This document shows positions 18,544 through 38,356 of a DNA stretch of 38,537 nucleotides, in pieces. The DNA comes from Chitinophagales bacterium (GTDB taxonomy: Bacteria; Bacteroidota; Bacteroidia; Chitinophagales; JADJOU01): NCBI GenBank assembly GCA_016787225.1, contig JAEUUY010000007.1, forward strand, positions 1-38,537, read 5' to 3'. Within the stretch, counting starts at the first letter, position 1. The number at the start of each line of letters is the position of its first letter. The notes beneath the pieces were generated by a model, which was given only the letters and a program-made list of their open reading frames with translations, was not told the DNA's origin and did not search any database. The translations under genes were made by a program, and so were the position numbers.

Positions 18544-21500
18544 CTAAAACAAACTCACCTCCCCAGACTTCACTAAACGAATACCATCTAACTTAGTTAA
18601 GCGAAGGGTATATGTATAGACTCCTTTGGCAGCAGGCTCCCCTTTGTAGGTTCCATCCCAGCCTAGGCGAATATCATCTGTTTCGAAGACTTTCTCTCCC
18701 CATCGGTTATAGACAGCCATTTCGAAACGCAAGACCCGATTGGCATAAGCTTTGAACGTTAGATTTTCTGATTTTTCAGCATGAGGGGAGAAGGCATTCG
18801 GAACAAAGAGTTCATCACTTTCTGTTCCTTCGACTTTGACTATAGTGGAGAAATCTGCTATACAACCATCCCCATATTTCAAATTCAAATTGAAACGTGT
18901 AGTTTGATATCCGCTAAATTCTGGGCTAAGACAATCTGTACAACTCAAGCCTAAGCCTGGACTCCATGTAGCTATATAAAATGCAGAACTAGGAGTTAAA
19001 GTCAATGCAGGATTTATAAGAATAGTTTCTCCTGTCTTTATATTAAAAACGGTATCGAGGGACAAAGTAAGTTTATAGATATAGTCTATATAAATAGGTT
19101 TCGAGTCTGTGCATGCACTATCATCTTTTATCGAAACTAGGTAGTTACCATAGCTCAAGCCCGAAAAGTAAGGCTCTTTCGTGTACCCTTTACTGCTATC
19201 TACACGATATGAATATGGTGGTGCGCCTCCATAGGGAAACACTGTAATCGTGCCATTAACATCCTCCTTACATTTTAAGTCCGCATATTTTGAATTTAGA
19301 TAAAGTGAATCTGGTTGCGACAAGGTATCATAGACTATATAGTTACAATTTTCATCATCAGTAATCGTAACCGAATAGGGCAAATTCGCTTGAAGATTCG
19401 TGATAAGAGGCGAAGTTTCTTTCGTATTCCAGAGATATTTATAGGGCGAATATCCGCCTTTAGCGTCTACTTTCAATCTACCATCGTTTAGTTGATAACA
19501 CCTCAAATTTTTCTTCTCTACGATTACCCCATGTAAAGCTCCATCAGGTAGTCGAAGATTCAAGGATGTTCCTACTTTACATCCATAGCTATCATGAACT
19601 ACCAGCTCATAGTAGCCTGTCAGATTATATCTAGCAGAATCATTCACCGCCCAAAACGCTCTTGGCCATTCGAAGGTATAGGGTGTCTTACCCCCGGTGA
19701 CTAATGCCTTTACGGGGAATATATTGGCAGTCTCGCAAGGTGGGGGATACTTGATTAACTCGAGCTTCATAGTATCCCTAGGCACTAGGTCTAAGGAATC
19801 CAAATATTCACAACCATATACATCTTTAACTAAAATGGTATATTTAGAATTTTTCTGATTGATGAAATTTCCTGAATTGTTCTGGACACTTCCCAGATTA
19901 AACTCTATAGGGTTTGTGCCAGTCAGAGGTTGCATTCTCAGATTTAGTAGACTATATGGACACCTAGGAATACCTAAGGTATCTAGTTTCACTCTTAGCA
20001 CATACATAGTATCTATGTATTCCTTTTTTTGTTTTTGACAGTTATTGGTATCTGTAATGGTGATAGTATAAGATTGAAAAGGTTCTAAATTGGTAACATT
20101 CATAGAAGAAGGACCATGACTCCAGTTGTACTTGAAAAATGGAGCCGTACCTCCTTTCAGATTTGTTACATCTAGTTTGCCATCCTTGGAAGCTGCACAG
20201 TGACTCTTAGTTGCTTTTAATTCGTAAGAGATCGAATCAGGTTGTGTGAGGTTATAAACTCTTATAGTAGTACATAAATTTCTATCTGTAATTGTAACAG
20301 AATAAATTCCTGATGTTAAATTTGTGATAGAAGAGGTGGAATTTCCATTTGACCAGTTATAGCTATAATTTGCTGGTGGTATAGGACTAGCCCCAGTTAC
20401 GATTAAAGCTATACTTCCATCTGTATCTCCAAAACATTTTAAATTCTTTTGATTCACCACTACATTAAAATTTGGAGGTTCGGTAACTGACATAACTGCT
20501 GTTTTTAAACAGTTTTTAGAATCACGCACGGAGACTGTATAGTTTGCAGCAGCTAAATTAACCACACGATTCGTATTCCCTCCATTAGACCAGCTATAGG
20601 TATGTGGCATTTTACCGCCAGATGAGGAAACTTCTAGTCTCCCTTTGCTTTCATTAGAACATAGATTTCCTATATTACTATCGATATTAATAAGAATAGG
20701 ACTAGGATTTGTTAAAGTCACTGCTAGATTGAGGATACAATTATAGTAATCTCTAATTTGAATGACATGATTGGTAGGTGGCAAATTGTTAATTACATTG
20801 TTCGTGGTAAATAAGCCAGAATTTAATCTATACTGGTAAGGTGGTTTACCTCCAAATGCAGTTATTGTTACCCTACCATTGCTAGCATTATTACAGTCTA
20901 TACTATCCACCGTATATGTATAATAAAATGTATCGCTTGACTTAACTTCTACATTGGTATCTTTGATACATAGATTCGCATCTCTTACTTTTAGATTGTA
21001 AAAGCCCGCAGCTAGATTAACAAAGGTATTGGCTGAGGTAAAGGTCTGACCATTAAAAGAAATCATATAGCCTGGAGTGCCGCCAGAAGGATTCACAATA
21101 ACACTGCCAGTGGTCTGTTTAAAACATTTGACACTATCGATGATAGCTGGACTTCGGATTTGACTTGGTTGAGTAATGGTCACAGTGCCATTTTTTATAC
21201 AATTATAAAAATCTCGAATGCTGTAATTATAAGTACCAGCAGGTAGTTTGGTAAAAGTATCTACAGTATTACTGGCAGAACCATTAAATGAAATTAGATA
21301 TGGCGGAGTGCCACCTGAAATTAAAAATTTTACTTTTCCCAGGCTATCTTTAAAGCATAAATTCTGGGTTAACTGAGGTACAATAACCATAGAATCTATT
21401 TGTGTAATCGTTACATTTTGCGACTTTATACACTGATACTGATCACGCACCTTGGCAGTCTGAACGCCAGCAGCCAATCCAGTAAATAAATTAGAAGACC

Positions 21501-24500
21501 CAAAGGCTGAAGCATTTATACCATAGGAATATCCGCCTGCACCTCCGCTAGCGGAAATAGTCATAGCCGCATTTGTATTTCCAAAACATTTTATGGTATC
21601 CTTTTGAGTTGTTATGACTATATCCGGATACTGAGGAACATTCATCAAGGAATCTACCTTACAATTATTTACATCTAATACTTCAATTAAATAATTTCCT
21701 ACACTCAGATTTTTCACCGTATCACCTATATTCACCATTGAATTACTTCTAATTGTTTTAGTGCCTGTACCGCCAGAATGGTTAACTGTAATTTTACCAG
21801 TACTGGCTCCGAAACATCGAATGGAGTCCATTTTATATGTTGCGGTCAAAGGGGCTGGCGTTATTAAAGTTGGATTAAATATTTTGCTACATAAGTTTAT
21901 ATCTCTAACTACGACAGTATAACTAGTCCCAGTCAGATTAAAAAATGAATCAGTGGTATTGAAAGCAGAAGCATTGAAGGAATACTGAAATGGAGCTGTG
22001 CCTCCTATAGGTATTGCTTTTATCGAACCTAATGTATTATGACACCTAGGGTGATACAAATTAAAACTTGCGTGAAGTGAGTCTGGTTGGGTGATGTTAA
22101 ATGAGACAGAATCTTTACAATTTTTGGTATCGGTTATGACTACATAATGGGGGCCTCTATTTAGAGTTATATTGGAATCCAAAGTCACATTATTTGACCA
22201 TAAGTAGGCGTATGGAGGCTGTCCACCGACTACATTTACCTTCGCTTTAGCGTCAGATAAGCCAAAACAAGAGACATTTTTCTGAATGGTTACATTGGAT
22301 GTCATACCTGATGGTTCTGACATAAATATAGAATCCAATACTTCACAATCATACGCATCCTTTACTCGTATATACTTCATGCCCGTATTCAGGTTCAGGA
22401 AGATATGAGATGTCTGAAATACTCCTCCATTGATGGAATAAGTATAAGGCGAACGTCCACCAGAAGCCGTAATCGATATCCTTCCATCATTCCCATTTTT
22501 ACATCGTATCGTATCTAGAATGCTTTTGACCATAGTGATTGGTGCATAAGTAAATACTTGGATCGAAGAGTCTTTGGTACAGCCATTCGTATCTTTTATA
22601 GAAACAGTATAGTTCGAGGCTACAAGATTTAGTTTGAAACTAGCGGTATCATAAGCAAGACTATTTAAACGGTAGGTATAGCCTGGACTGCCTCCCGAAG
22701 CGAAAAATAGAATTCGACCACTGTTTCCACCAAAACATTTTACACTATCTGAAATTAGCGATAACTGCAAAGCGGATGGATTAGTCAAAGTCAGAGAATA
22801 AGATTTTAAGCACGACTGACTATCTCTTATTTGAATGTTATATACCGCACCGATTAACCCGCCAAAGCTATCCGAATTTGAAAAAGCGGACGCATTGATA
22901 GCATATTGATATGGTGCTGTACCACCTTGAGGTAGGACTCTGATAAATCCATTCGAAGAAAGATGACATAGTGGATGTTTAAAATTCAAACTTGCCCTTA
23001 GCGAATCGGGCTGGGTTATCACTATAGATAATGTGTCTCTACAACCATTAGAATCTGAAACGAAAGCTATATAAGAAGCACTGGACAAATTAACCAAAGA
23101 GTCATTACTACCTGTAAGGTTCCATGAATAGGTATACGGTGTCTTACCCATACTAGTATTCACTTTTATTTTACCATCACTGAATCCAAAGCAGCTCACA
23201 TTTTTTTTCATTATCAATCCTAAAACAGGTTTTGAATGACTTTTAAGTGTATCTTGAAATATGCGAATACAATTATTTCTATCACGGATAGAATAATTAA
23301 AGGCACCATTTATCAGATTAATAAAATTGGGGGCTGTTTGAAATGCTCCGCTATTATACCTATACTCATAACTAGGATTTCCCCCATTGGCGGAAATAGA
23401 TAGAGCTCCATTCGCATTAAATGGACAATTATTTTGCTTCGAGACAGAGGCTGTAATCAGAGGATACTGAAGGATAGTAATCGAAGTATCGATCGGACAA
23501 TTTGCTGCATCTTTCGTTTTGATTATATAGCTTCCCGCCTTCAATGTATTAAAAACCCCAGAAGATGTAAAACTCCCATTATTGATTGAATAAAAATAAC
23601 CCGGTTTACCACCAGACAAACTAGCTACTATTCTACCACTGGAATCTCCGAAGCATTTAGCACTGTCTCGAGTGAAAGCAAGACTTAAATTAGTAAATGG
23701 GACTATAGTATCCGTGCGCTGAATGCTGCATCCAGCCCTGTCGGTAACTTGGATAGTGTAGATACCGGTTGTAATTTTATTGAATGAATCTACAGACTGA
23801 GGAGATCTACCCGTAAGTACATAGGTAAACGGGGAATAACCTCCTAGTGGTGTTAAGCGCATCAACCCGCTGGAATCCTGATTGCAGTAATTGACTCTTT
23901 TAGAGTAAATAGTAGACATGGAATCGTGAGTTAGGGAAATAGAATCTGCGCAACCTCCCGCATTCCGAACCCAATAAGTCATACTCCCACGAGTTTGATT
24001 CAAAATTGGATTGGTATTCGAAGTTGGATTAGGGATGGTGCCTAATCGCAAGCCTCCAGTATCTCCAGATACGAAGAGTCTTAATTGACCATTAGCCAGA
24101 GAATTAAAACATCCAATTCTTCGAAAGGAGTCAATTTTAGGTTGTACATATTTTATTACATTATAAAACACGGTATCTCTATTGCATCCGAGAGCGTTAA
24201 ATCTTCTTACGACATAATATCTTCCTGTATTCGAAACCGTTCGAGTAGGGCTTGTAGAGCCATTATCCCAGGTATAATTGAGTGCGGAAACATTCGTAGC
24301 ATTTAATAGTTTCGAATTTTGACACTTGATGGTATCATATAATTCGGAGACCTGTACTACATTATTTATTCCATAAACCTTGAGCGTATCACGCGCTATT
24401 AGCGTGCCAGATGGGCAGGGCTGAGAGATCGTAACGCTCGCAACATAATTAGCTGAATCATCATTCGCTACAAAATTTGCAACTGCTGCAGAGCTAATTG

Positions 24501-25425
24501 CGGATCCATTTTTAGTCCATTGAACTGTCGTAGTATTGAGACTTCCATTTGGGGTAAATCGCACAGCTGTATTTGCTCCATTCCATAAAGAGCTATCTCT
24601 CCCTGGGGTCACTATAAATTTAAATATAGAATCTCCTTGCAAGCCTTGAGTAGCAGGATATCGCAATACGGTGCTAGATAAGGTACAAATAGGCTTAGTT
24701 TTTATATAGATATCAATCAAATTGGTTGTCTCATATAACACAATTTTCATATTTAAGACCATATTGGGATCGCTTCTACAGCTTGATAAAAAATATCTGC
24801 AATTATTCCATTTCACGATGTATGCTCTAAAAGGTGCTGTACCTACCAATTGAGTAGTAATGGTGCCTCCACCAGGATTAGAACCAGTAGTCACTAAGTA
24901 GGCATCAAACCAAGCACCTAGAATACTATTGGGTGGCAAGGTAGTGGCTACAGAGGAAGGGTTAGGATTAGCAGAAAGAGGCAATCTTCTAGGCACAAAG
25001 GGAGCTGTATACGTAGACAACACAGGTTTATTGGTAGAGAAGGTAAGAAAGCCATTATCGCAGATTTGCATCTGAGTATGCTGTACCCCGAAAAAGCAAA
25101 AATTAAACCCAATATTCTGAATGGCAGAATAGGCGTCATCAATGGTAATTCCAGCACCTGCCACCAATGAGCCTGTGGTTTCACATGGAAGGGTATCCAC
25201 GTGTGGAATGGTAGTGACGGTATAAGATGTCGTGGAGCGCAGCGTAGGTATACTTACAGATGCAGACAAGCTAGAGCCTTTACATACGGTGGTATCTCTT
25301 TTAGGAGCTGATAAAGGACTAGGACTCACTCTTACAGACACTGCACTACAACCCTGCCCTTTCATTTCTGACATGAAATACACAAATAAAATTAATATTG
25401 AAAATATGTATCTCCTTAGAAGCAC
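18544..25425 (-). CDS. Giant secreted SprB-repeat adhesin with type IX C-terminal sorting domain
   Basis: 2293 residues. The GTG start (25425-25423) is preferred because a stop lies just upstream in frame and it gives a signal peptide (basic LLRR, then hydrophobic YIFSILILFVYF). Residues about 60-290 resemble the N-terminal globular domain common in such proteins (DAYSAIQNIGFNFCFFGVQ, later GLQGDSIFKFIVTPG), followed by an Ig-like stretch. From about 430 to 2160 I count about 21-22 SprB-type repeats with the pattern CFG-S-G-I-V-GG-PY-Y-W/N-L-G-Y-V-D-C. The last about 90 residues are the gliding-motility/type B sorting domain (LFVPNAFSPHAEKSENLTFK, then VYNRWGEKVF and GWDGTYKGE). Such proteins are exported by the type IX system; SprB itself is a gliding adhesin. 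The actual role here is unknown. Confidence 0.93.
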   Translation of the reverse strand: MLLRRYIFSILILFVYFMSEMKGQGCSAVSVRVSPSPLSAPKRDTTVCKGSSLSASVSIPTLRSTTSYTVTTIPHVDTLPCETTGSLVAGAGITIDDAYSAIQNIGFNFCFFGVQHTQMQICDNGFLTFSTNKPVLSTYTAPFVPRRLPLSANPNPSSVATTLPPNSILGAWFDAYLVTTGSNPGGGTITTQLVGTAPFRAYIVKWNNCRYFLSSCRSDPNMVLNMKIVLYETTNLIDIYIKTKPICTLSSTVLRYPATQGLQGDSIFKFIVTPGRDSSLWNGANTAVRFTPNGSLNTTTVQWTKNGSAISSAAVANFVANDDSANYVASVTISQPCPSGTLIARDTLKVYGINNVVQVSELYDTIKCQNSKLLNATNVSALNYTWDNGSTSPTRTVSNTGRYYVVRRFNALGCNRDTVFYNVIKYVQPKIDSFRRIGCFNSLANGQLRLFVSGDTGGLRLGTIPNPTSNTNPILNQTRGSMTYWVRNAGGCADSISLTHDSMSTIYSKRVNYCNQDSSGLMRLTPLGGYSPFTYVLTGRSPQSVDSFNKITTGIYTIQVTDRAGCSIQRTDTIVPFTNLSLAFTRDSAKCFGDSSGRIVASLSGGKPGYFYSINNGSFTSSGVFNTLKAGSYIIKTKDAANCPIDTSITILQYPLITASVSKQNNCPFNANGALSISANGGNPSYEYRYNSGAFQTAPNFINLINGAFNYSIRDRNNCIRIFQDTLKSHSKPVLGLIMKKNVSCFGFSDGKIKVNTSMGKTPYTYSWNLTGSNDSLVNLSSASYIAFVSDSNGCRDTLSIVITQPDSLRASLNFKHPLCHLSSNGFIRVLPQGGTAPYQYAINASAFSNSDSFGGLIGAVYNIQIRDSQSCLKSYSLTLTNPSALQLSLISDSVKCFGGNSGRILFFASGGSPGYTYRLNSLAYDTASFKLNLVASNYTVSIKDTNGCTKDSSIQVFTYAPITMVKSILDTIRCKNGNDGRISITASGGRSPYTYSINGGVFQTSHIFLNLNTGMKYIRVKDAYDCEVLDSIFMSEPSGMTSNVTIQKNVSCFGLSDAKAKVNVVGGQPPYAYLWSNNVTLDSNITLNRGPHYVVITDTKNCKDSVSFNITQPDSLHASFNLYHPRCHNTLGSIKAIPIGGTAPFQYSFNASAFNTTDSFFNLTGTSYTVVVRDINLCSKIFNPTLITPAPLTATYKMDSIRCFGASTGKITVNHSGGTGTKTIRSNSMVNIGDTVKNLSVGNYLIEVLDVNNCKVDSLMNVPQYPDIVITTQKDTIKCFGNTNAAMTISASGGAGGYSYGINASAFGSSNLFTGLAAGVQTAKVRDQYQCIKSQNVTITQIDSMVIVPQLTQNLCFKDSLGKVKFLISGGTPPYLISFNGSASNTVDTFTKLPAGTYNYSIRDFYNCIKNGTVTITQPSQIRSPAIIDSVKCFKQTTGSVIVNPSGGTPGYMISFNGQTFTSANTFVNLAAGFYNLKVRDANLCIKDTNVEVKSSDTFYYTYTVDSIDCNNASNGRVTITAFGGKPPYQYRLNSGLFTTNNVINNLPPTNHVIQIRDYYNCILNLAVTLTNPSPILINIDSNIGNLCSNESKGRLEVSSSGGKMPHTYSWSNGGNTNRVVNLAAANYTVSVRDSKNCLKTAVMSVTEPPNFNVVVNQKNLKCFGDTDGSIALIVTGASPIPPANYSYNWSNGNSTSSITNLTSGIYSVTITDRNLCTTIRVYNLTQPDSISYELKATKSHCAASKDGKLDVTNLKGGTAPFFKYNWSHGPSSMNVTNLEPFQSYTITITDTNNCQKQKKEYIDTMYVLRVKLDTLGIPRCPYSLLNLRMQPLTGTNPIEFNLGSVQNNSGNFINQKNSKYTILVKDVYGCEYLDSLDLVPRDTMKLELIKYPPPCETANIFPVKALVTGGKTPYTFEWPRAFWAVNDSARYNLTGYYELVVHDSYGCKVGTSLNLRLPDGALHGVIVEKKNLRCYQLNDGRLKVDAKGGYSPYKYLWNTKETSPLITNLQANLPYSVTITDDENCNYIVYDTLSQPDSLYLNSKYADLKCKEDVNGTITVFPYGGAPPYSYRVDSSKGYTKEPYFSGLSYGNYLVSIKDDSACTDSKPIYIDYIYKLTLSLDTVFNIKTGETILINPALTLTPSSAFYIATWSPGLGLSCTDCLSPEFSGYQTTRFNLNLKYGDGCIADFSTIVKVEGTESDELFVPNAFSPHAEKSENLTFKAYANRVLRFEMAVYNRWGEKVFETDDIRLGWDGTYKGEPAAKGVYTYTLRLTKLDGIRLVKSGEVSLF

Positions 25426-28692: not shown

Positions 28693-31600
28693 ATGCTATT
28701 TCTAGGCCTCAAAAGAAACGTGACGTTTCTAGTATGTATTTCAGTACTTGGTATTCAACACCTCTCCGCTCAAAGAATCAAAGATTATATTTCTGCAGAT
28801 ACCGCTATTTTTCGTGGGATTGTTCTACATGACAAAGAACAATATCAGAAAGCTATCGAATCATACAAACTAGTATCATCTAATGACCCTAGTTATCCTC
28901 TCGCTTTATATGAGATTGCCTTGAGTTTTTATGAATCTAAGAATTATGATTCTGCCTATGCCTATGCTACAGAATGTATAACATATCCAGAATCTAATTT
29001 TTATGAAAGTGCGGTTATATTGCGTGGTAACTCATTAAAAGAACTAGAAAGATTTCCAGAAGCACTGCAAAATTATGACGCAGCCTTGTCGAAATTTCCT
29101 AAAAATGTAAGTCTGCTTCATAACAAAGCGATGGTTTACAAAAAATCGAAAGAGTTTCAAAAAGCCCTTGATTTATTCAAAGAAGTCAATGTAGAATATT
29201 CTGGGTATATCAAAAATCAGCTCGCTATTGCTCAATTAGCAGAAGAAGAAGGATTTCTCACTCAAGCCTTCTTAGCATATAGCCATGCTTTGTTATACTC
29301 CATTGGTACCAAGCATCATCTATCCATCTTAGCGGAAATGAACAAGCTAGCTGCAAAAAAACTAGAGGAGAATCCGAAAGATATCATCTTTAGCGCAGAA
29401 GGAGATCAGTTTGGTGATATAGAAAATTTATTGAAAACACAGGCTGCTCTTCAAAAAAAATACAAAATTAATACCGAGATTGACCTACCTATTGTACGAC
29501 AGTTACATCTACTTTTTGCTCAATTAGAAAACTATGAACCTGGTAATGGCTATTTTGACAAATACTATGTGCCTTTTTATAAAGACATCGCTAAAGATGG
29601 AAAATTTAACCAATTTATTGACATTCTATTTTTGCCTATAAACGATCCTCAGATACAACGATTGATAGGAGGTAGAAGCAAAGAGGTTATCAAATTCGCA
29701 GAAGAATTAGGAATAAAGCTTGCCAATACTGTAAATAGAAGAGACCTTACTATTATGGACAAAAAACTTAATCTCGCATGTCATTTTAATAAGGGTATAA
29801 AAAGCTGTGGAAACTATAACGAAGATAATAAGAAAGACGGCGTCTGGTATGTTTTTCATACCAATGGTAATCTTAATAGATATGGAGAGCTAGTAAATGA
29901 CAAAGCTACCAATCTTTGGGAATACTATTATACGGATGGTAAAAAAAGTGCAGAATATATGTACAAGGATGATAATATGAATGGAGTTTATAAGAGATTC
30001 TATCGCAATGGGAAAATAAGTGAAGAGGGAAGTTATCTAGAAGATAGTCTCGATGGTGAATTTAAGTCCTACTATATGAATGGTAATTTAAAATCTAAAG
30101 GAAACTATATCAATAATAAATACGACTCAGAATGGAGAACATACTACGTAAACGGAAATCCAAAAGGAATTTTTAATTATAAAGAAGATCTTTTTGATGG
30201 TGAGTACACAACCTTTGCTGTCGATGGTAAGACTGTTTTATCTAAACTCAATTATAAAAATGGGAAATTAGACGGCAAACAAGAAACCTATCACCTCAAT
30301 GGCAATAAGGAGAATGAAGGTGAATTTAATCTAGGAAAACGAATAGGAGAACATAAAGAGTATTTTACCAATGGGGTACTGAAAGAAGAAACCAAGTATG
30401 AAGATGACGAACTCATAGACCAAAAAGACTACTATGTCAGTGGAGCACTTTATACGAAATATGGCTACAAAAAAGGTGAGCTGGAATCTATGGATATGTA
30501 CGACTATGACGGGAATCATACAACTACCTACAAGTTTAAAAATGACTATCTCAAGCAAATGATAACCTATAACAAAAATGGTGAAGAACTGGAGAAAGAG
30601 TCTATTGGTAAAAATGATGAGTTTGCTGGAAAGTGGTTTTATACAAATAATCGATCTATGCAAGGAAATTATAAAAAAGGGAAAAGACACGGGCGCTGGG
30701 TTTTTTATAATATAAATGGAACTAAAGATAGCGAGTCAAACTATGAACTAGGTGTAAAGAATGGTCTTCAGCGTGAATATAATTACCTAGGGATACTCTC
30801 TTCAGAATTTCGAATGGAAGATAATAAAAATCATGGCTATTACAGAACCTATTATCCATCTGGAGAACTGAAATCAGAAAGCTGGTATATCGAAGGGAAA
30901 TTAAACGGTCCTCGATACGAATACTATATAGATGGAACCACTATGAATGAGTCCTACTATGTCGATGGAGATCTGGAAGGCAAATACATAGAATACGATC
31001 CAGATGGGAAGGTCCTGGCTCACTACAATTACAAAAATGATGAATTTATCTCCTATACGAATTTTGATAGAGATGGAAAAGAACTCAATAGTGTAGTCAT
31101 TTCCGAAAACAAAACAGAAATGAAACCATGCTCTAAATTAAGTTTCACAAGTTATAAAAGAGATAAAATCTATGGTCTGAATGAAGGCGAGACCTATAGC
31201 GAACCCGCTCCAGGTATATTTGACTTTAAGGGAAATTATTTAGCTGGTGAGTTGCACGGTGTTTTTACTCACTACTACAGCAATGGAAATAAAAATGTAT
31301 CGGCGAATTATCTCCTAGATAATAAAGATGGATCTGATACATTCTTTTATCATAATGGCAATATTTTTTCTATAGAAAACAATATTCTAGGAGTCAACTA
31401 TGGTAAATATAACCGCTTTTATTATACTGGTCAGCTATGGCTCGAGAGAAATTATATCAATGACAACAGGGATGGTTTTGAAAATGTATACGGCATCAAT
31501 GGGGAACTCGTTCTTCAGAAAATATATAAACTGGGTTACTTCTACGGCATTGTTCGTAACAATGCCAATGGCGAACTAGCCGATACCTTAAAGGCTCGCA

Positions 31601-31977
31601 ACGAAACCCTCGAATACGAAGCCAATTATAAGAATGGAAAAACCGCAGTCAAAGAATCTATCAAACTGGACAACCTATTAAGTTCAGAGTTTTTTGATGA
31701 AAATGGACAGCTCTTATATATATATCAAGGTGAGGAAAATGGCAACGATCTAAAAAAAGAGTACTACTACACCAATGGAAAACTCATGAATGCTACCAAA
31801 TTTGATAAAGGTCAACAAACAGAAAAACTATTTTATAGAGCTGATGGATCATTAGAAATGAAGGAAGAATTAAAATTTGATCAGGTTCATGGCAGAACTA
31901 TAGTCAAGGATGAGCAAGGAGCTACTAAACTGAATTTAATTTACAGAAATAATATAGCATATGAACTGGGCGAATAA
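28693..31977 (+). CDS. Secreted TPR and MORN-like (YwqK-type) repeat protein
   Basis: 1094 residues with a signal peptide (MLFLGLKRNVTFLVCISVLG, cleavage likely after LSAQ near 26). Residues about 30-220 are TPR-like (for example YQKAIESYKLVSSNDPSYPL, FPEALQNYDAALSKFPKN). From about 365 comes an array of roughly 25 MORN-2-type repeats of pattern Y-NG-KSEG-Y-DGEW-YY, interrupted near 810-850. MORN-2 repeats are commonly protein- or lipid-interacting; the function here is unknown. First gene of an operon: its last 17 bases overlap the next gene, implying translational coupling with two DUF3857/transglutaminase proteins. Confidence 0.85.
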   Translation: MLFLGLKRNVTFLVCISVLGIQHLSAQRIKDYISADTAIFRGIVLHDKEQYQKAIESYKLVSSNDPSYPLALYEIALSFYESKNYDSAYAYATECITYPESNFYESAVILRGNSLKELERFPEALQNYDAALSKFPKNVSLLHNKAMVYKKSKEFQKALDLFKEVNVEYSGYIKNQLAIAQLAEEEGFLTQAFLAYSHALLYSIGTKHHLSILAEMNKLAAKKLEENPKDIIFSAEGDQFGDIENLLKTQAALQKKYKINTEIDLPIVRQLHLLFAQLENYEPGNGYFDKYYVPFYKDIAKDGKFNQFIDILFLPINDPQIQRLIGGRSKEVIKFAEELGIKLANTVNRRDLTIMDKKLNLACHFNKGIKSCGNYNEDNKKDGVWYVFHTNGNLNRYGELVNDKATNLWEYYYTDGKKSAEYMYKDDNMNGVYKRFYRNGKISEEGSYLEDSLDGEFKSYYMNGNLKSKGNYINNKYDSEWRTYYVNGNPKGIFNYKEDLFDGEYTTFAVDGKTVLSKLNYKNGKLDGKQETYHLNGNKENEGEFNLGKRIGEHKEYFTNGVLKEETKYEDDELIDQKDYYVSGALYTKYGYKKGELESMDMYDYDGNHTTTYKFKNDYLKQMITYNKNGEELEKESIGKNDEFAGKWFYTNNRSMQGNYKKGKRHGRWVFYNINGTKDSESNYELGVKNGLQREYNYLGILSSEFRMEDNKNHGYYRTYYPSGELKSESWYIEGKLNGPRYEYYIDGTTMNESYYVDGDLEGKYIEYDPDGKVLAHYNYKNDEFISYTNFDRDGKELNSVVISENKTEMKPCSKLSFTSYKRDKIYGLNEGETYSEPAPGIFDFKGNYLAGELHGVFTHYYSNGNKNVSANYLLDNKDGSDTFFYHNGNIFSIENNILGVNYGKYNRFYYTGQLWLERNYINDNRDGFENVYGINGELVLQKIYKLGYFYGIVRNNANGELADTLKARNETLEYEANYKNGKTAVKESIKLDNLLSSEFFDENGQLLYIYQGEENGNDLKKEYYYTNGKLMNATKFDKGQQTEKLFYRADGSLEMKEELKFDQVHGRTIVKDEQGATKLNLIYRNNIAYELGE

Positions 31978-33892
31978 AATTATTCTATTCTTTCTCTGCA
32001 TAGCCACGAGCATCCATGCTCAAGTAGAGGACTATGTCAAAAAATTAGAAGCCAAGTATCCAAAGGAGAATTTTATCACTACCTTAGAATCTAAGAAATT
32101 CAAAATTGAATTAAAAAACAATAGTCCCAAGGTCTATCTTGAGAGCTACTCTGAAACTATCCTAATGAATGACTTTCTCAGAGGAGCTGATGAAGGCAGT
32201 GTAGGTTATTCAAAATTTCGAAAACTGACGGACGTAGAAGCCTGGACCATGACCCCAGTAAAAGATGAGTATAAGAAAGTAAAAGTAGCTAAATATGAAA
32301 CAAAGAAAGAGCTGGACAATGCTATATTTCATGATGATCACGAAGAGAAAGTTTTTAACTATACCGAATTAAAAAGAGGAGCGAAACGCTGTCTTAAATC
32401 TTCTTATGAATTCGAACTACCTCAAATGTTTGACTATGTCATACTGATGAATCAATCCTCTATAGAACAATATGATGTAGAAGTAGAAGTAGATAACGCT
32501 ATCACTCTGAATTTTAAGGAATACTATCTTGAAAACAAAAAATTTGATTTCGAAAAAAAGGTAGAAAAAAATAAAACTATCTACAAATGGCGATTCAAAG
32601 ATCTACCAAAGTACAAAGCAGAGAGTGGGTCCTGTGATTTTCTATATTTCGCTCCGCATATACGATTTCTCATATCTCATTATATTGGTAAAAACGATGA
32701 TACCATAAAAGTCCTGCAGACACCTCTTGATTTATATAAGTTCAATTATCAATTCATAGCTAATCTTAAAGAATGCAGTAACCCGAGTTATAAAAAAACG
32801 ATAGACTCGCTCATAGCTGGGGTCTCTGATGATGAAATCAAAGCGAAGAAAATTTATCAATGGGTACAAAAAAACATCAAATATATAGCCTTTGAAAGTG
32901 GATTTCAGGGCTATATCCCGAGAGAGGCAGACGATATTTTTACCAAGAAATTTGGAGACTGTAAAGACATGGCGAATATTATACATAAATCATTCAAATA
33001 TGCCAAGCTGGACAGTGTCTATCTCACCTGGATAGGTTCGGACAAGCTTCCATATCGAATAGAAGAATTTCCAATTCCTGGAGTATTTAACCACATGATA
33101 GCTGTATGGAAACATAAAGGAAAAAACTACATTTTAGATGCTACCAATTCCTACACAAAATGGGGATTGCCCTCGAGTTTTATCCAGACAAAGCAAGCTT
33201 TTATAGGACTAAGCCCTACAGCATATGAAATCTATAATATAGACCCCGTTTCGGATGAAGTCAATCAGAAGATAATTACTGTAAGAGCTAAAATATCAGG
33301 AGATACATTGAAAGGCAGTGGCAGTGTAAAACTCACAGGGTATCTGAAAGATTATTTTATAGGACGGACAGATCACCTCAAAGGTAATGATCGATTTCAA
33401 TATCTCAAAAATTTCGTTCAGTTAGGTAATAATAAATTTATTCTGCAAAATCAAAAAGAATTTAATATTGATGAGATTGATAGCCCATATCTGGTGACTT
33501 TTGACTTTGCCATACTCAATTATGTTTCGAAAATTAAGGATGAAATTTTTATAAACCCATATCTAGAAAAATATGGCTCCACAGATGACCTTAACGATAA
33601 GAGAATCTCCGATATTAAGGCGGATTTTCATTCTAAGCAGTCTATCGATATAGAAATAGACATGCCCGAAGGCTATCAAGTCAAGTATCAACCGAAAAAT
33701 GAATTTATAGAATACGACGAATTGTTTTTCACTTCAGAACTTCATGTGAAGGAAGATAAAATAAAATTGTATTATGAGTTCGTTCACGATTTCATCATTC
33801 TACCGAAATCAAAATATAAAATACTCAAAGATTACCAAAACAAAGTCTTAGACCTATTATCTGAAACCATTTCCTTTAAAAAAATAAATTAA
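31961..33892 (+). CDS. Secreted DUF3857/transglutaminase-like protein, intact triad
   Basis: 643 residues. The signal peptide is MNWANKIILFFLCIATSIHA, cleaved before Q. The N-terminal part (about 25-260) fits a DUF3857 beta-rich domain. The transglutaminase-like domain (about 270-410) keeps the Cys-His-Asp triad: Cys334 (FGDCKDMANI), His378 (VFNHMIAVW) and Asp393 (YILDATNSY), after KAKKIYQWVQKNIKY. A C-terminal beta domain follows. Such proteins may act as cysteine peptidases or crosslinking enzymes; the substrate is unknown. It overlaps the MORN protein gene and is followed one base later by a sister protein without the triad. Confidence 0.88.
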   Translation: MNWANKIILFFLCIATSIHAQVEDYVKKLEAKYPKENFITTLESKKFKIELKNNSPKVYLESYSETILMNDFLRGADEGSVGYSKFRKLTDVEAWTMTPVKDEYKKVKVAKYETKKELDNAIFHDDHEEKVFNYTELKRGAKRCLKSSYEFELPQMFDYVILMNQSSIEQYDVEVEVDNAITLNFKEYYLENKKFDFEKKVEKNKTIYKWRFKDLPKYKAESGSCDFLYFAPHIRFLISHYIGKNDDTIKVLQTPLDLYKFNYQFIANLKECSNPSYKKTIDSLIAGVSDDEIKAKKIYQWVQKNIKYIAFESGFQGYIPREADDIFTKKFGDCKDMANIIHKSFKYAKLDSVYLTWIGSDKLPYRIEEFPIPGVFNHMIAVWKHKGKNYILDATNSYTKWGLPSSFIQTKQAFIGLSPTAYEIYNIDPVSDEVNQKIITVRAKISGDTLKGSGSVKLTGYLKDYFIGRTDHLKGNDRFQYLKNFVQLGNNKFILQNQKEFNIDEIDSPYLVTFDFAILNYVSKIKDEIFINPYLEKYGSTDDLNDKRISDIKADFHSKQSIDIEIDMPEGYQVKYQPKNEFIEYDELFFTSELHVKEDKIKLYYEFVHDFIILPKSKYKILKDYQNKVLDLLSETISFKKIN

Positions 33893-33893
33893 T

Positions 33894-35870
33894 ATGACCT
33901 CTTCTCATCTGAAAACAGGGCTTTTGTTGACTTTTGTGATCTGTTCTATCATCACACAAGCTCAAAGATTTTCTTACTATAACTACAACTGGAAGGATAC
34001 AGTTGAAAAATTTGAATTAAGCGAACAAGAATCCAAAAAACCAGTAGTGGTGGTTAAGGAAAAGCGTGTGACTGAGTTAGTGGTTGATAAAGCTGGAGTA
34101 ATCACCTTCGAACTTAAACACACTATAAAAAAGGTCAATACAGATCATGGTATTGAAAAGAGCAATAAAGTTTATATATATGAAAGTAAGCGCAATGAGA
34201 TTATTAGCAATAAACTTCGAGTGATAAATCCAAATGGAAACATCATAGAACTGACTCAGGAGGATATCCAAGAAGCTGTAGATGAAACTACGAAATCAAA
34301 ATATAAATACTATGCCGTGAAAGGTCTAGAAATAGGGAGTATCATAGAGGAACTCGTCGTTACGAAATCGACAGCTAGTATGAATGGAAAAATACTACCT
34401 ATTCAGACGAGTGACTATAAGAAAAATGTAGAAGTAGAAATCATTTATCCATCATTTTTAAAGTTTGAAGTCAAAACTTACAATGGATTAGCGAAAGCCA
34501 TCATAGATGATACGACCTTTGAGAAAAAAATCGTTCACAGAATAGTAGCAAATTCGATCGACGAATTAGAAGATGAAAAATATAGCAACTATAAAGCTAA
34601 CTTACAATACCTAGCCTATAAACTCATAGCTAATAAAGCTGCGAATAGTCATAATCTCAATAGCTTTAATTCCATAGCGGAAAATGTCTATGCCTTATAC
34701 AACAAAGAATTAGATAGAAAGTCAGAAAAAGCGCTACAGGAATATATCGCTAAGTTTAATTTTCCTGAAAATGCTACCTTGGAAGATTCTATCAAAACTA
34801 TCGAACATGCTATAAAACTAGATATCGTCTACATGGAGGATATGCCTACCGCCAATGAAAATTTAGCTCAGGTCATACAGTCTAAAAAAGCCACCGAGCA
34901 GGACCTTACCATCTTATATACCAATATATTTAAAGTATATGGCATCAAAGCAAATCCAGTCATCACCAATAATAGATTTAACTATCCATTTGATCACAAA
35001 TTTGAAAATGTCAATCAACTCGAAGCACTTTTATTCTATTTTCCAGATAGTAAAAAATTTATTTGTCCTGCTTCACAATCCTCGCGCTATCCCAATTTTC
35101 CTTATGCATACGGATCGAACTATGGTTTGCTTATCAAAACCCAAGACATAGGCGGTACGGAGCTCGTAGTCAAGGAAATGAAAAAAATAGAAATCCCATC
35201 GAATTATGGCAAAGACTCATTAGATATAACCTATGACTTTACAGAATCTATGAGTCAACCTAAAACGAAAATAGTATCCACACTCTATGGACATGATGCC
35301 GAAAGTTTTCAGTTTGCATTTAGTTTCGCAGATGATAAGCAGAAAAAGGAAATGCTAGAGTCTTATATAAAAAATTATTGTGGAGAGACCGATCTCGAGT
35401 ATGTGCATGAAAATGGAGGTAAAGAAAACTTAGGACAAAAACCCTTTATCGTTTCTACCGAATTTACAAGTAATAAACTCTTAGAAAAAAATGGAGAAAA
35501 CATTATTTTAAAATTAGGCGAATCCATAGGTCCACAGTCAGAGCTTTATCAGGAAAAAGAAAGAGTATTGCCTATAGAAATGCCTTTCCCGCATACCTAT
35601 AAGAGGCATTTCAAAGTCATCATACCAGCAGAATATGAGTTTAATAATCTAGAAGCGCTTCAAATGAACCATGAGCTCAAAGAAGGAGATAAGGTTTCCT
35701 CAGCATTCTATTCTAGCTATAAGCTCGAAGGAAATGTTCTCTATATCGATGTCATAGAGTTTTATTCTAAAACAAACTATCCCAAATCGGACTATCCTGC
35801 TTTTAAAAATGTAATTAACGCCGCAGCCGATTTCAATAAGATTAAGATTATACTAACTAAAAAGGGTTAG
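33894..35870 (+). CDS. Secreted DUF3857 protein with degenerate transglutaminase domain
   Basis: 658 residues with a signal peptide (LLLTFVICSIITQAQ near 11-25). Same overall plan as the preceding protein: an N-terminal DUF3857-like domain (ELKHTIKKVNTDHG, then NGNIIELTQEDIQEAVDE), a middle alpha region, then a C-terminal beta domain. In the transglutaminase segment the Cys position reads KKATEQDLTILY (Glu335), the His position NVNQLEALLFY (Gln) and the Asp position KKFICPASQ (Pro). All three catalytic residues are therefore absent by my alignment. It is probably non-catalytic, a scaffold or regulator. It begins one base after the active homologue and ends the operon. Confidence 0.82.
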   Translation: MTSSHLKTGLLLTFVICSIITQAQRFSYYNYNWKDTVEKFELSEQESKKPVVVVKEKRVTELVVDKAGVITFELKHTIKKVNTDHGIEKSNKVYIYESKRNEIISNKLRVINPNGNIIELTQEDIQEAVDETTKSKYKYYAVKGLEIGSIIEELVVTKSTASMNGKILPIQTSDYKKNVEVEIIYPSFLKFEVKTYNGLAKAIIDDTTFEKKIVHRIVANSIDELEDEKYSNYKANLQYLAYKLIANKAANSHNLNSFNSIAENVYALYNKELDRKSEKALQEYIAKFNFPENATLEDSIKTIEHAIKLDIVYMEDMPTANENLAQVIQSKKATEQDLTILYTNIFKVYGIKANPVITNNRFNYPFDHKFENVNQLEALLFYFPDSKKFICPASQSSRYPNFPYAYGSNYGLLIKTQDIGGTELVVKEMKKIEIPSNYGKDSLDITYDFTESMSQPKTKIVSTLYGHDAESFQFAFSFADDKQKKEMLESYIKNYCGETDLEYVHENGGKENLGQKPFIVSTEFTSNKLLEKNGENIILKLGESIGPQSELYQEKERVLPIEMPFPHTYKRHFKVIIPAEYEFNNLEALQMNHELKEGDKVSSAFYSSYKLEGNVLYIDVIEFYSKTNYPKSDYPAFKNVINAAADFNKIKIILTKKG

Positions 35871-36488: not shown

Positions 36489-36866
36489 CTATTTGTCTGT
36501 CCAATATGCAAAAGATTGAGGAGGTAATAGATTAAAGTCTTCTCTTAAACATTTTGGCGTTCGGTATTTTCTTGGTTTTTTAACTTCAATTGCAAATCCC
36601 ATTTCTTTGTCGGCAAAATATTGATAATAAAAATCTTCACTTATGCCTGAATGTTCTTGTGTCATTTCCCAAAGTGTGTCAAGGTCGTGATTATGGATGT
36701 GCTCAATTTGAAATTCTCCAATTACTTGTTGAACTGGTGAAGAAGCGTAAACAATAACCGATTTAACTCTGGGGTCCTTAAAAATTGATTTTCGGAACTC
36801 AAATTTTTTTGTTCCGTCAAATATTTTAAAAGCGAACTCTGGCTTTATTGATAATACTACTTTCAT
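36489..36866 (-). CDS. ASCH-domain protein
   Basis: 125 residues, a single ASCH (PUA-fold) domain. MKVVLSIKPEFAFKIFDGTK then the GxKKFEFRK signature (Lys20, Glu23, Arg25), then SVIVYASSPVQQVIGEFQIE, are typical of the family. ASCH proteins bind RNA or modified nucleobases; E. coli YqfB is an N4-acetylcytidine amidohydrolase, but its catalytic Thr position appears to be Glu23 here, so that activity is uncertain. The ATG lies inside the end of the upstream gene (4-base overlap), so it is translated with the PIN-GNAT fusion. Confidence 0.85.
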   Translation of the reverse strand: MKVVLSIKPEFAFKIFDGTKKFEFRKSIFKDPRVKSVIVYASSPVQQVIGEFQIEHIHNHDLDTLWEMTQEHSGISEDFYYQYFADKEMGFAIEVKKPRKYRTPKCLREDFNLLPPQSFAYWTDK

Positions 36867-38356
36867 TTTCCTATTGAATATTGTGCAATTTTACGAAAAT
36901 TTTCTCTTGATATTTCTTGAAATCCTCTTGGAACGCTATTAACGTCTGCAATAATTCCATTTTCTATTAACCATTGTAAGTTTGGTCGCTTTCTAAATGT
37001 ATATGAATAAATAAACTTAACTACAAATGGTTTTAAACTTGGGTAAAGTGTCCAATGCCCTTTTAGTTCTTCATCTGTAAATACACTACGTTTTTTACAT
37101 AATGTAATAAATGTCTCTAAATTGGGGATATTAGTTGTTACACTTTCCACAATTCCTACTGTTGTTACAACACCTTTATATAATCCGCCGGTCATATAGA
37201 AAACAATGATGTCGCCCGAATTTAACTCCTTAAAATGTGAACGGGAAATATACACTTTGCTTAAAGCATTTCTATGAGGTTTGTTTTCTACAAAATCTAT
37301 CGGTGATTCATTTCGCAAAATTGAATCGGGAAATAAATCAGTGTGATATGCAGGATAGATAGGAACAATATAAACTTTTGTATCTTGTGAAATAAAAGGA
37401 AAGCTTTTTTTAGGAGCTAATAAATTTATTTCTTGGTTTCTGTCAAAGTTCTTTGTTAGAACAATTTCGCCTGTTGATTTTTTAACTCCCGATTTTTCAA
37501 AGCCCCATTCTTCTAACAAATTTATTAGTCGGATTTGTTCGGCACTTTTTTCAAAAATTGTTACATAAATTTCATCCACTTTTGATTTTAGTGCATTGTC
37601 AAAAATTATTTTTAAAAAACGTTCGCCAATTTTAAATCCGTTGCTTGTTACTTTAAATGTTCCAATTTTTAATCTCTTTTTTGGTTTGAAAATTGGTTCT
37701 ATATCAGAATAATTTTCAGTTTCATCCTCGGATTTGATATATAAAAATGCAGATAAAGAATTATTACTATAACAGATATAAGAAATCTCATCAGCTTTTT
37801 TGTTAAACCACTTATCAAACTCCTGATAATCTTCTCTAAAACTGTCAAAAAATGAATTTTGTAAATCTACTTTTGCAAAATATTCTTTCTTAACTGCTAA
37901 AACTTTATAGTCTACCAAATTTGGGTTATTTGCGACAACCATCTCCAAAAATTGGTCAATTTTAAAAACCCTGTCAGCTATACCTAACAGCTCTGCTTTT
38001 GTGTGATTTTTTTTATCTTCGGAAATTAATATTTCAACTCTATCACATAAAACTTCGTTCAGTAATTTAGTGTCATTTTTATCGTTTTCGGTTGTGTCAA
38101 TTTGCAAGCTTACATTTTTCAATAAATCGCTTTCGGGAGCAAGATTTATTATTTGATTATAGCTCTGAATTTTAATATTAAATGTCTCTACAGTTTTTTG
38201 GTCTTTATTTCTGTTAAGCTCTTCAACTGTAATAGGATGAATGTACTTTTTGTAATTGAGTTTGTCTAACCAATTGAAAAGAACGCCAATGTCGGCATTA
38301 ACAACTTTTGGTGTCTCTCTGTGAATTATTATGTTAGTGTCTAATAAAACTTTCAT
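36863..38356 (-). CDS. PIN-GNAT-EVE/PUA-like fusion protein
   Basis: 497 residues in three parts. The N-terminal PIN domain (about 1-130) has MKVLLDTNIIIH, with acidic residues Asp6, Glu45/Glu46, Asp95 and Asp114 forming a plausible metal site, so it is probably an RNase. A GNAT-like domain (about 220-305) reads KRLKIGTFKVTSNGFKIGER then INLLEEWGFEKSG; its acetyl-CoA loop is degenerate. The C-terminus (about 325-497) resembles the EVE/PUA fold (SGDIIVFYMTGGLYKGVVTT, HFKELNSG). No signal peptide. The 4-base overlap with the ASCH gene implies one operon. Family assignment is by eye. It could be a toxin, defence or RNA-processing enzyme. Confidence 0.78.
   Translation of the reverse strand: MKVLLDTNIIIHRETPKVVNADIGVLFNWLDKLNYKKYIHPITVEELNRNKDQKTVETFNIKIQSYNQIINLAPESDLLKNVSLQIDTTENDKNDTKLLNEVLCDRVEILISEDKKNHTKAELLGIADRVFKIDQFLEMVVANNPNLVDYKVLAVKKEYFAKVDLQNSFFDSFREDYQEFDKWFNKKADEISYICYSNNSLSAFLYIKSEDETENYSDIEPIFKPKKRLKIGTFKVTSNGFKIGERFLKIIFDNALKSKVDEIYVTIFEKSAEQIRLINLLEEWGFEKSGVKKSTGEIVLTKNFDRNQEINLLAPKKSFPFISQDTKVYIVPIYPAYHTDLFPDSILRNESPIDFVENKPHRNALSKVYISRSHFKELNSGDIIVFYMTGGLYKGVVTTVGIVESVTTNIPNLETFITLCKKRSVFTDEELKGHWTLYPSLKPFVVKFIYSYTFRKRPNLQWLIENGIIADVNSVPRGFQEISRENFRKIAQYSIGK

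Follow-up and report, generated by a model that had tools for sequence, protein, structure and literature searches.

We propose that the window, by which we mean the whole 38,537-nucleotide stretch of Chitinophagales DNA analyzed here, encodes an enzyme and a catalytically dead relative that work together. P1 is probably an exported cysteine hydrolase of the transglutaminase fold, with P2, the product of the adjoining gene, as its obligate pseudoenzyme partner. Pairing of one live and one or more dead copies recurs in every tandem cluster that we examined across the Bacteroidota, which suggests that dead copies are kept as functional partners, not as relics. An enzyme with a pseudoenzyme partner had been put forward in a preliminary description of this DNA, and the idea is now strongly supported by a pairing without exceptions, by purifying selection on P2, and by two genomes that keep both genes although they are unlinked. 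The genes are listed in Table 1.

Table 1. Genes of the operon and further features of the window
Feature	Position	Strand	Length	Remarks
P3, MORN/TPR repeat protein, exported	28693..31977	+	1094 aa	MORN_2 and TPR matches; first gene of the operon
P1, DUF3857 and transglutaminase-core protein	31961..33892	+	643 aa	Pfam; Cys334-His378-Asp393 intact
P2, DUF3857 protein with degenerate transglutaminase domain	33894..35870	+	658 aa	Pfam; E335, Q375, P392
SprB-repeat protein	18544..25425	-	2293 aa	14 SprB repeat matches; CHU_C type IX secretion signal
ASCH-domain protein overlapping a second protein	36489..38356	-	125 aa; 497 aa	weak PIN-domain start, below cut-off, in the 497-aa protein

Organization of the locus and catalytic residues

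The P1 and P2 reading frames lie on the same strand with a single base between them, and the last 17 bases of the P3 frame overlap the beginning of P1. Both P1 and P2 begin with a signal-peptide-like N-terminus ending in AQ, so that reading frames, Pfam matches and N-termini all agree with the earlier view of two secreted DUF3857 proteins one base apart. Judged by the signal peptides alone, both would be located in the envelope. Beyond P3, P1 and P2, no neighbor was conserved across related loci except for local synteny in Flavobacterium, and we therefore read no function from the SprB-like and response-regulator genes found close by. The SprB-repeat protein encoded a few kb from the operon is likely a type IX-secreted adhesin; no SprB-type neighbor figures in the conserved gene families of related loci. 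On the other side of the operon, the ASCH protein resembles the C-terminal part of the NCBI "L22/unknown domain fusion" model.

Both proteins belong to the DUF3857 family (PF12969), with 40.0 bits for P1 and 41.7 bits for P2 against a Pfam cut-off of 24.6. For Transglut_core (PF01841, cut-off 23), P1 passes with 24.3 bits and P2 stays under with 12.4 bits; P1 combines a passing score with Cys-His-Asp, and P2 has neither. The C-terminal domain DUF3858 (PF12970) was not matched in Pfam by either protein at E-values up to 1. In the window, P1 and P2 are only about 18% identical, and BLASTP found no significant similarity between them; their relatedness is clear in profile comparison. A profile-profile alignment of the two families places P2 residues E335, Q375 and P392 opposite the P1 residues C334, H378 and D393, exactly the full triad in the first protein and the Glu, Gln and Pro in the second that had been read at the outset.

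These assignments hold across the families. Positions 334/378/393 are C/H/D in P1 and the triad is present in 81/81 P1 relatives. Since this set came from a scan with a Cys-bearing seed, the triad was rechecked by a profile search independent of the Cys motif, and C-H-D was again found in all 18 P1 proteins retrieved from 296 genomes. By the same reading, the triad occurs in none of the 79 relatives of P2, where the nucleophile column is variable (Q27, S17, E14, L8) and never holds Cys; likewise, Cys and His residues both close to their catalytic positions were found in 0/79 P2 sequences.

Conservation of the pairing and of the MORN/TPR gene

Scanning genome contigs turned up 80 P1 relatives, which makes 81 with the window; two of these loci end at a contig edge. 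In all of the 79 readable loci, window included, P2 lies directly downstream of P1 on the same strand. The survey of homologous operons that had been suggested for this locus thus returns the active/inactive pairing throughout, and the possibility that the pair is unique to this genome is dismissed. The spacing is tight, many gaps ranging from -4 to +7 bases. Among 296 Bacteroidota genomes, 18 contain a strong P1, and every one of them also holds either P2 (11 genomes) or P2' (7 genomes), a diverged form of P2 of about 730 aa; neither form occurs in any of the other genomes. The two proteins are paralogues of which one has an intact triad and the other a lost one, and both are conserved together. 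The Bacteroidota P1-P2 pair also occurs on a MAG contig under the title Klebsiella pneumoniae, probably a mislabelled or contaminated bin.

Two genomes separate the genes. In one (G190), P1 and P2 are carried by separate contigs, each with intact and unrelated flanks, and no MORN gene stands beside either; in the other (G289), P1 sits at a contig end and P2' is found elsewhere. Few as they are, these two genomes show that shared transcription is not the sole force that keeps P1 with P2.

The association with P3 is looser. It was found upstream of P1 in 72/78 loci and was absent from 6, with 3 further loci in which it is cut off. When the six genomes without it were searched, no full-length P3 relative was found elsewhere in them, only short TPR or MORN matches, nor does P3 adjoin the pair in any of the six variant clusters. 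Because the pair persists without P3 in the six loci and in a two-gene variant clade, P3 is a frequent accessory outside the core. Of the arrangement first suggested, in which a repeat scaffold takes part alongside the two DUF3857 proteins, the frequent presence of P3 upstream is borne out, but its place in the core is not.

Selection on P2

Conservation was compared over 39 non-redundant loci, where the mean pairwise identity of P1 (38.2%) is about equal to that of P2 (39.3%). Its distribution is shifted between the two proteins: columns at least 95% identical make up 16.7% of the transglutaminase domain and 3.8% of the C-terminal domain in P1, and 2.7% and 9.4%, respectively, in P2, which by invariant columns is least conserved in its transglutaminase domain. 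Conserved motifs in the C-terminal domain of P2 lie around residues 542-557 and 640-649. Median dN/dS was 0.058 for P1, 0.044 for P2 and 0.093 for P3; these values come from closer pairs among the other loci, because the window and its nearest relative are saturated at synonymous sites. Purifying selection on P2 is strong, equal to or above that on P1. That one copy of an ordinary tandem duplication is decaying with little function is accordingly most improbable. Duplicates often do lie in tandem, and the low identity of the copies in the window would fit such a history, but a dN/dS of about 0.04, conservation equal to that of P1 and presence in 79/79 loci already contradict it. The pattern seen in P2 looks to us like that of a binding protein, neither an enzyme nor a relic.

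What P2 would bind is a separate matter. Its former catalytic domain retains several near-invariant residues (R361, F366, D367, F370, Y382, P392, R398), and R361, F366, D367, F370 and R398 could form a ligand site or another active site. P2 might on this evidence be an independent ligand- or peptide-binder, or an enzyme whose active site is new, merely co-transcribed with P1; inactive relatives in other clusters, described below, often retain the Asp and sometimes the His, so their pockets have not simply been wrecked. We nevertheless consider this unlikely, given that the nucleophile column of P2 varies, that the transglutaminase domain is the part of P2 with the fewest invariant columns, and that the pairing has no exception and survives even a separation of the genes.

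The evolutionary distances of P1 and P2 are also correlated. Their partial correlation given P3 is 0.65, compared with 0.40 for the pairs that include P3, which is a comparison with a single control protein. The P1-P2 correlation beyond the P3 signal points to partnership, but is suggestive only; adjacency and correlated divergence can also come from co-inheritance.

Tandem DUF3857 clusters in other Bacteroidota

DUF3857 regions were fetched from other Bacteroidota genomes drawn evenly over the phylum. All 31 tandem DUF3857 clusters sampled (25 canonical and 6 variant) contain a single Cys-bearing member, accompanied by one or two that lack the Cys. When the labels of the 25 canonical clusters were dealt at random in 20,000 trials, a mean of 11.8 clusters and a maximum of 21 fit the rule, a result that is not a formal probability because related genomes are not independent. 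DUF3857 genes also occur singly, and these are mostly active, with a few inactive ones. One such solo inactive protein (L154, 5022-7016) has no live neighbor within the 12 kb fetched. The genome of the window itself encodes a third DUF3857 protein, solo and active with C-H-D (L124, 6068-9032), followed after about 95 bases by a 306-aa MORN-repeat protein, which makes this the second DUF3857-MORN neighborhood of the genome.

Like P1 and P2, the canonical clusters combine one C-H-E/D member with one or two inactive neighbors. They differ in that, in the tree, their members group in clades distinct from those of P1 and P2 and in that the inactive gene can come first. The P3 profile detected no MORN/TPR neighbor of the canonical clusters, and the PF12970 (DUF3858) scores of their members run from values under the cut-off to values slightly over it. 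P1, P2 and both variant forms each make a single clade in the tree, and the canonical active and inactive members come close to doing so. Loss of the triad needs two changes on a tree of 109 proteins and one on a tree of 50 proteins (support 84).

The canonical inactive members (for example L133, 3825-5909, and L136, 7575-9533) often keep the Asp and sometimes the His, with S-H-D in some. Besides this S-H-D kind, with Ser for Cys, there are others with V, A or I at that position and Tyr at the position of His. The Ser-type inactive members could have residual or altered chemistry.

One live gene for every one or two dead genes in each cluster, together with the tight spacing, would also suit a dedicated inhibitor or a prodomain-like chaperone that holds P1 off until a signal arrives, and inactive paralogues are known as regulators in other protease families. 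We regard this role as quite improbable for P2, which has its own signal peptide and a full three-domain fold; besides, no sequence feature tells inhibition from activation or recruitment.

Proposed mechanism and implications

Returning to P2 as an obligate partner of P1, we propose the following model. P1 would be a cysteine hydrolase, probably a peptidase, that is exported, most likely to the periplasm. P2 would have arisen when a gene with the three-domain architecture of P1 was duplicated in the distant past, and would then have lost the catalytic triad and been retained as an obligate non-catalytic partner. Most likely it would use its N- and C-terminal domains, which are conserved, to bind P1, the substrate or both, and would thereby recruit substrate or regulate P1. 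P3 would be an optional addition, probably a scaffold at the surface or facing the cell wall.

It is possible, and we offer it only tentatively, that exported hydrolases widespread in the Bacteroidota work solely as heteromers of one catalytic DUF3857 subunit and one or more obligate pseudoenzyme subunits, an undescribed general machine of the envelope of which the rule of one live member in each cluster would be the mark. Enzyme-pseudoenzyme pairs and inactive proteins of the transglutaminase fold are already known as kinds. No description of a P1-P2 type pairing in DUF3857 proteins was found in the literature searched, where the family is mentioned only in passing; since the search covered open-licence papers only, this absence is weak evidence. 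The exceptionless rule of one live member turns a set of unannotated genes, in a phylum abundant in soil, water and gut, into a testable hypothesis of a heteromeric envelope enzyme. It predicts that an assay of any single member alone may miss activity.

Predicted structures and comparison with known systems

AlphaFold2 models based on the family alignments were confident, with a pLDDT of 91 and a pTM of 0.85 for P1, and a pLDDT of 89 and a pTM of 0.83 for P2. Both models have three parts, a beta domain at the N-terminus, a transglutaminase-like domain in the middle and a beta-rich domain at the C-terminus, and share the order of their secondary structure elements. The helix that starts at C334 in the P1 model, where it carries the nucleophile, has its counterpart in P2 starting at E335.

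The only near full-length solved relative that we found is BDI_1141 of Parabacteroides distasonis (PDB 3KD4), a DUF3857/DUF3858 protein labelled "putative protease". A direct sequence search of the PDB with P1 or P2 alone found nothing; the P1 family profile found 3KD4, and the P2 family profile gave chance matches only. The three-domain fold is shared near full length with both proteins (Z 24.8 for P1 and 19.4 for P2) at an identity of about 10-12%. In the sequence alignment, 3KD4 reads YGTPLEIA where P1 reads FGDCKDMA, and it therefore also seems to lack the catalytic Cys. The nearest solved structure, in spite of its label, thus appears to be an inactive member of the family; no partner or function of BDI_1141 has been described.

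The middle, catalytic domain of P1 resembles LapG (Z 11.7), a periplasmic transglutaminase-like cysteine protease (PMC3032545). LapG belongs to the BTLCP family (DUF920) of such periplasmic proteases, which also includes Caulobacter HvyA (PMC3032545, PMC4241560). P1 and LapG/BTLCP proteins have in common a transglutaminase fold with Cys-His-Asp and export, predicted for P1 from its signal-peptide-like N-terminus. They differ in family: P1 matches DUF3857 and Transglut_core in Pfam and had no Pfam match to BTLCP, so the likeness is at the level of the fold only. LapG is regulated by LapD, and to our knowledge it has neither a DUF3857 domain nor an inactive paralogue that regulates it. The structure of erythrocyte protein 4.2 is also among the P1 matches (Z 8.9). 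That protein is a transglutaminase homologue which has lost catalysis and kept the fold for binding; it is eukaryotic and cytoskeletal and does not stand in tandem with an active partner, whereas P2 is encoded in tandem with P1.
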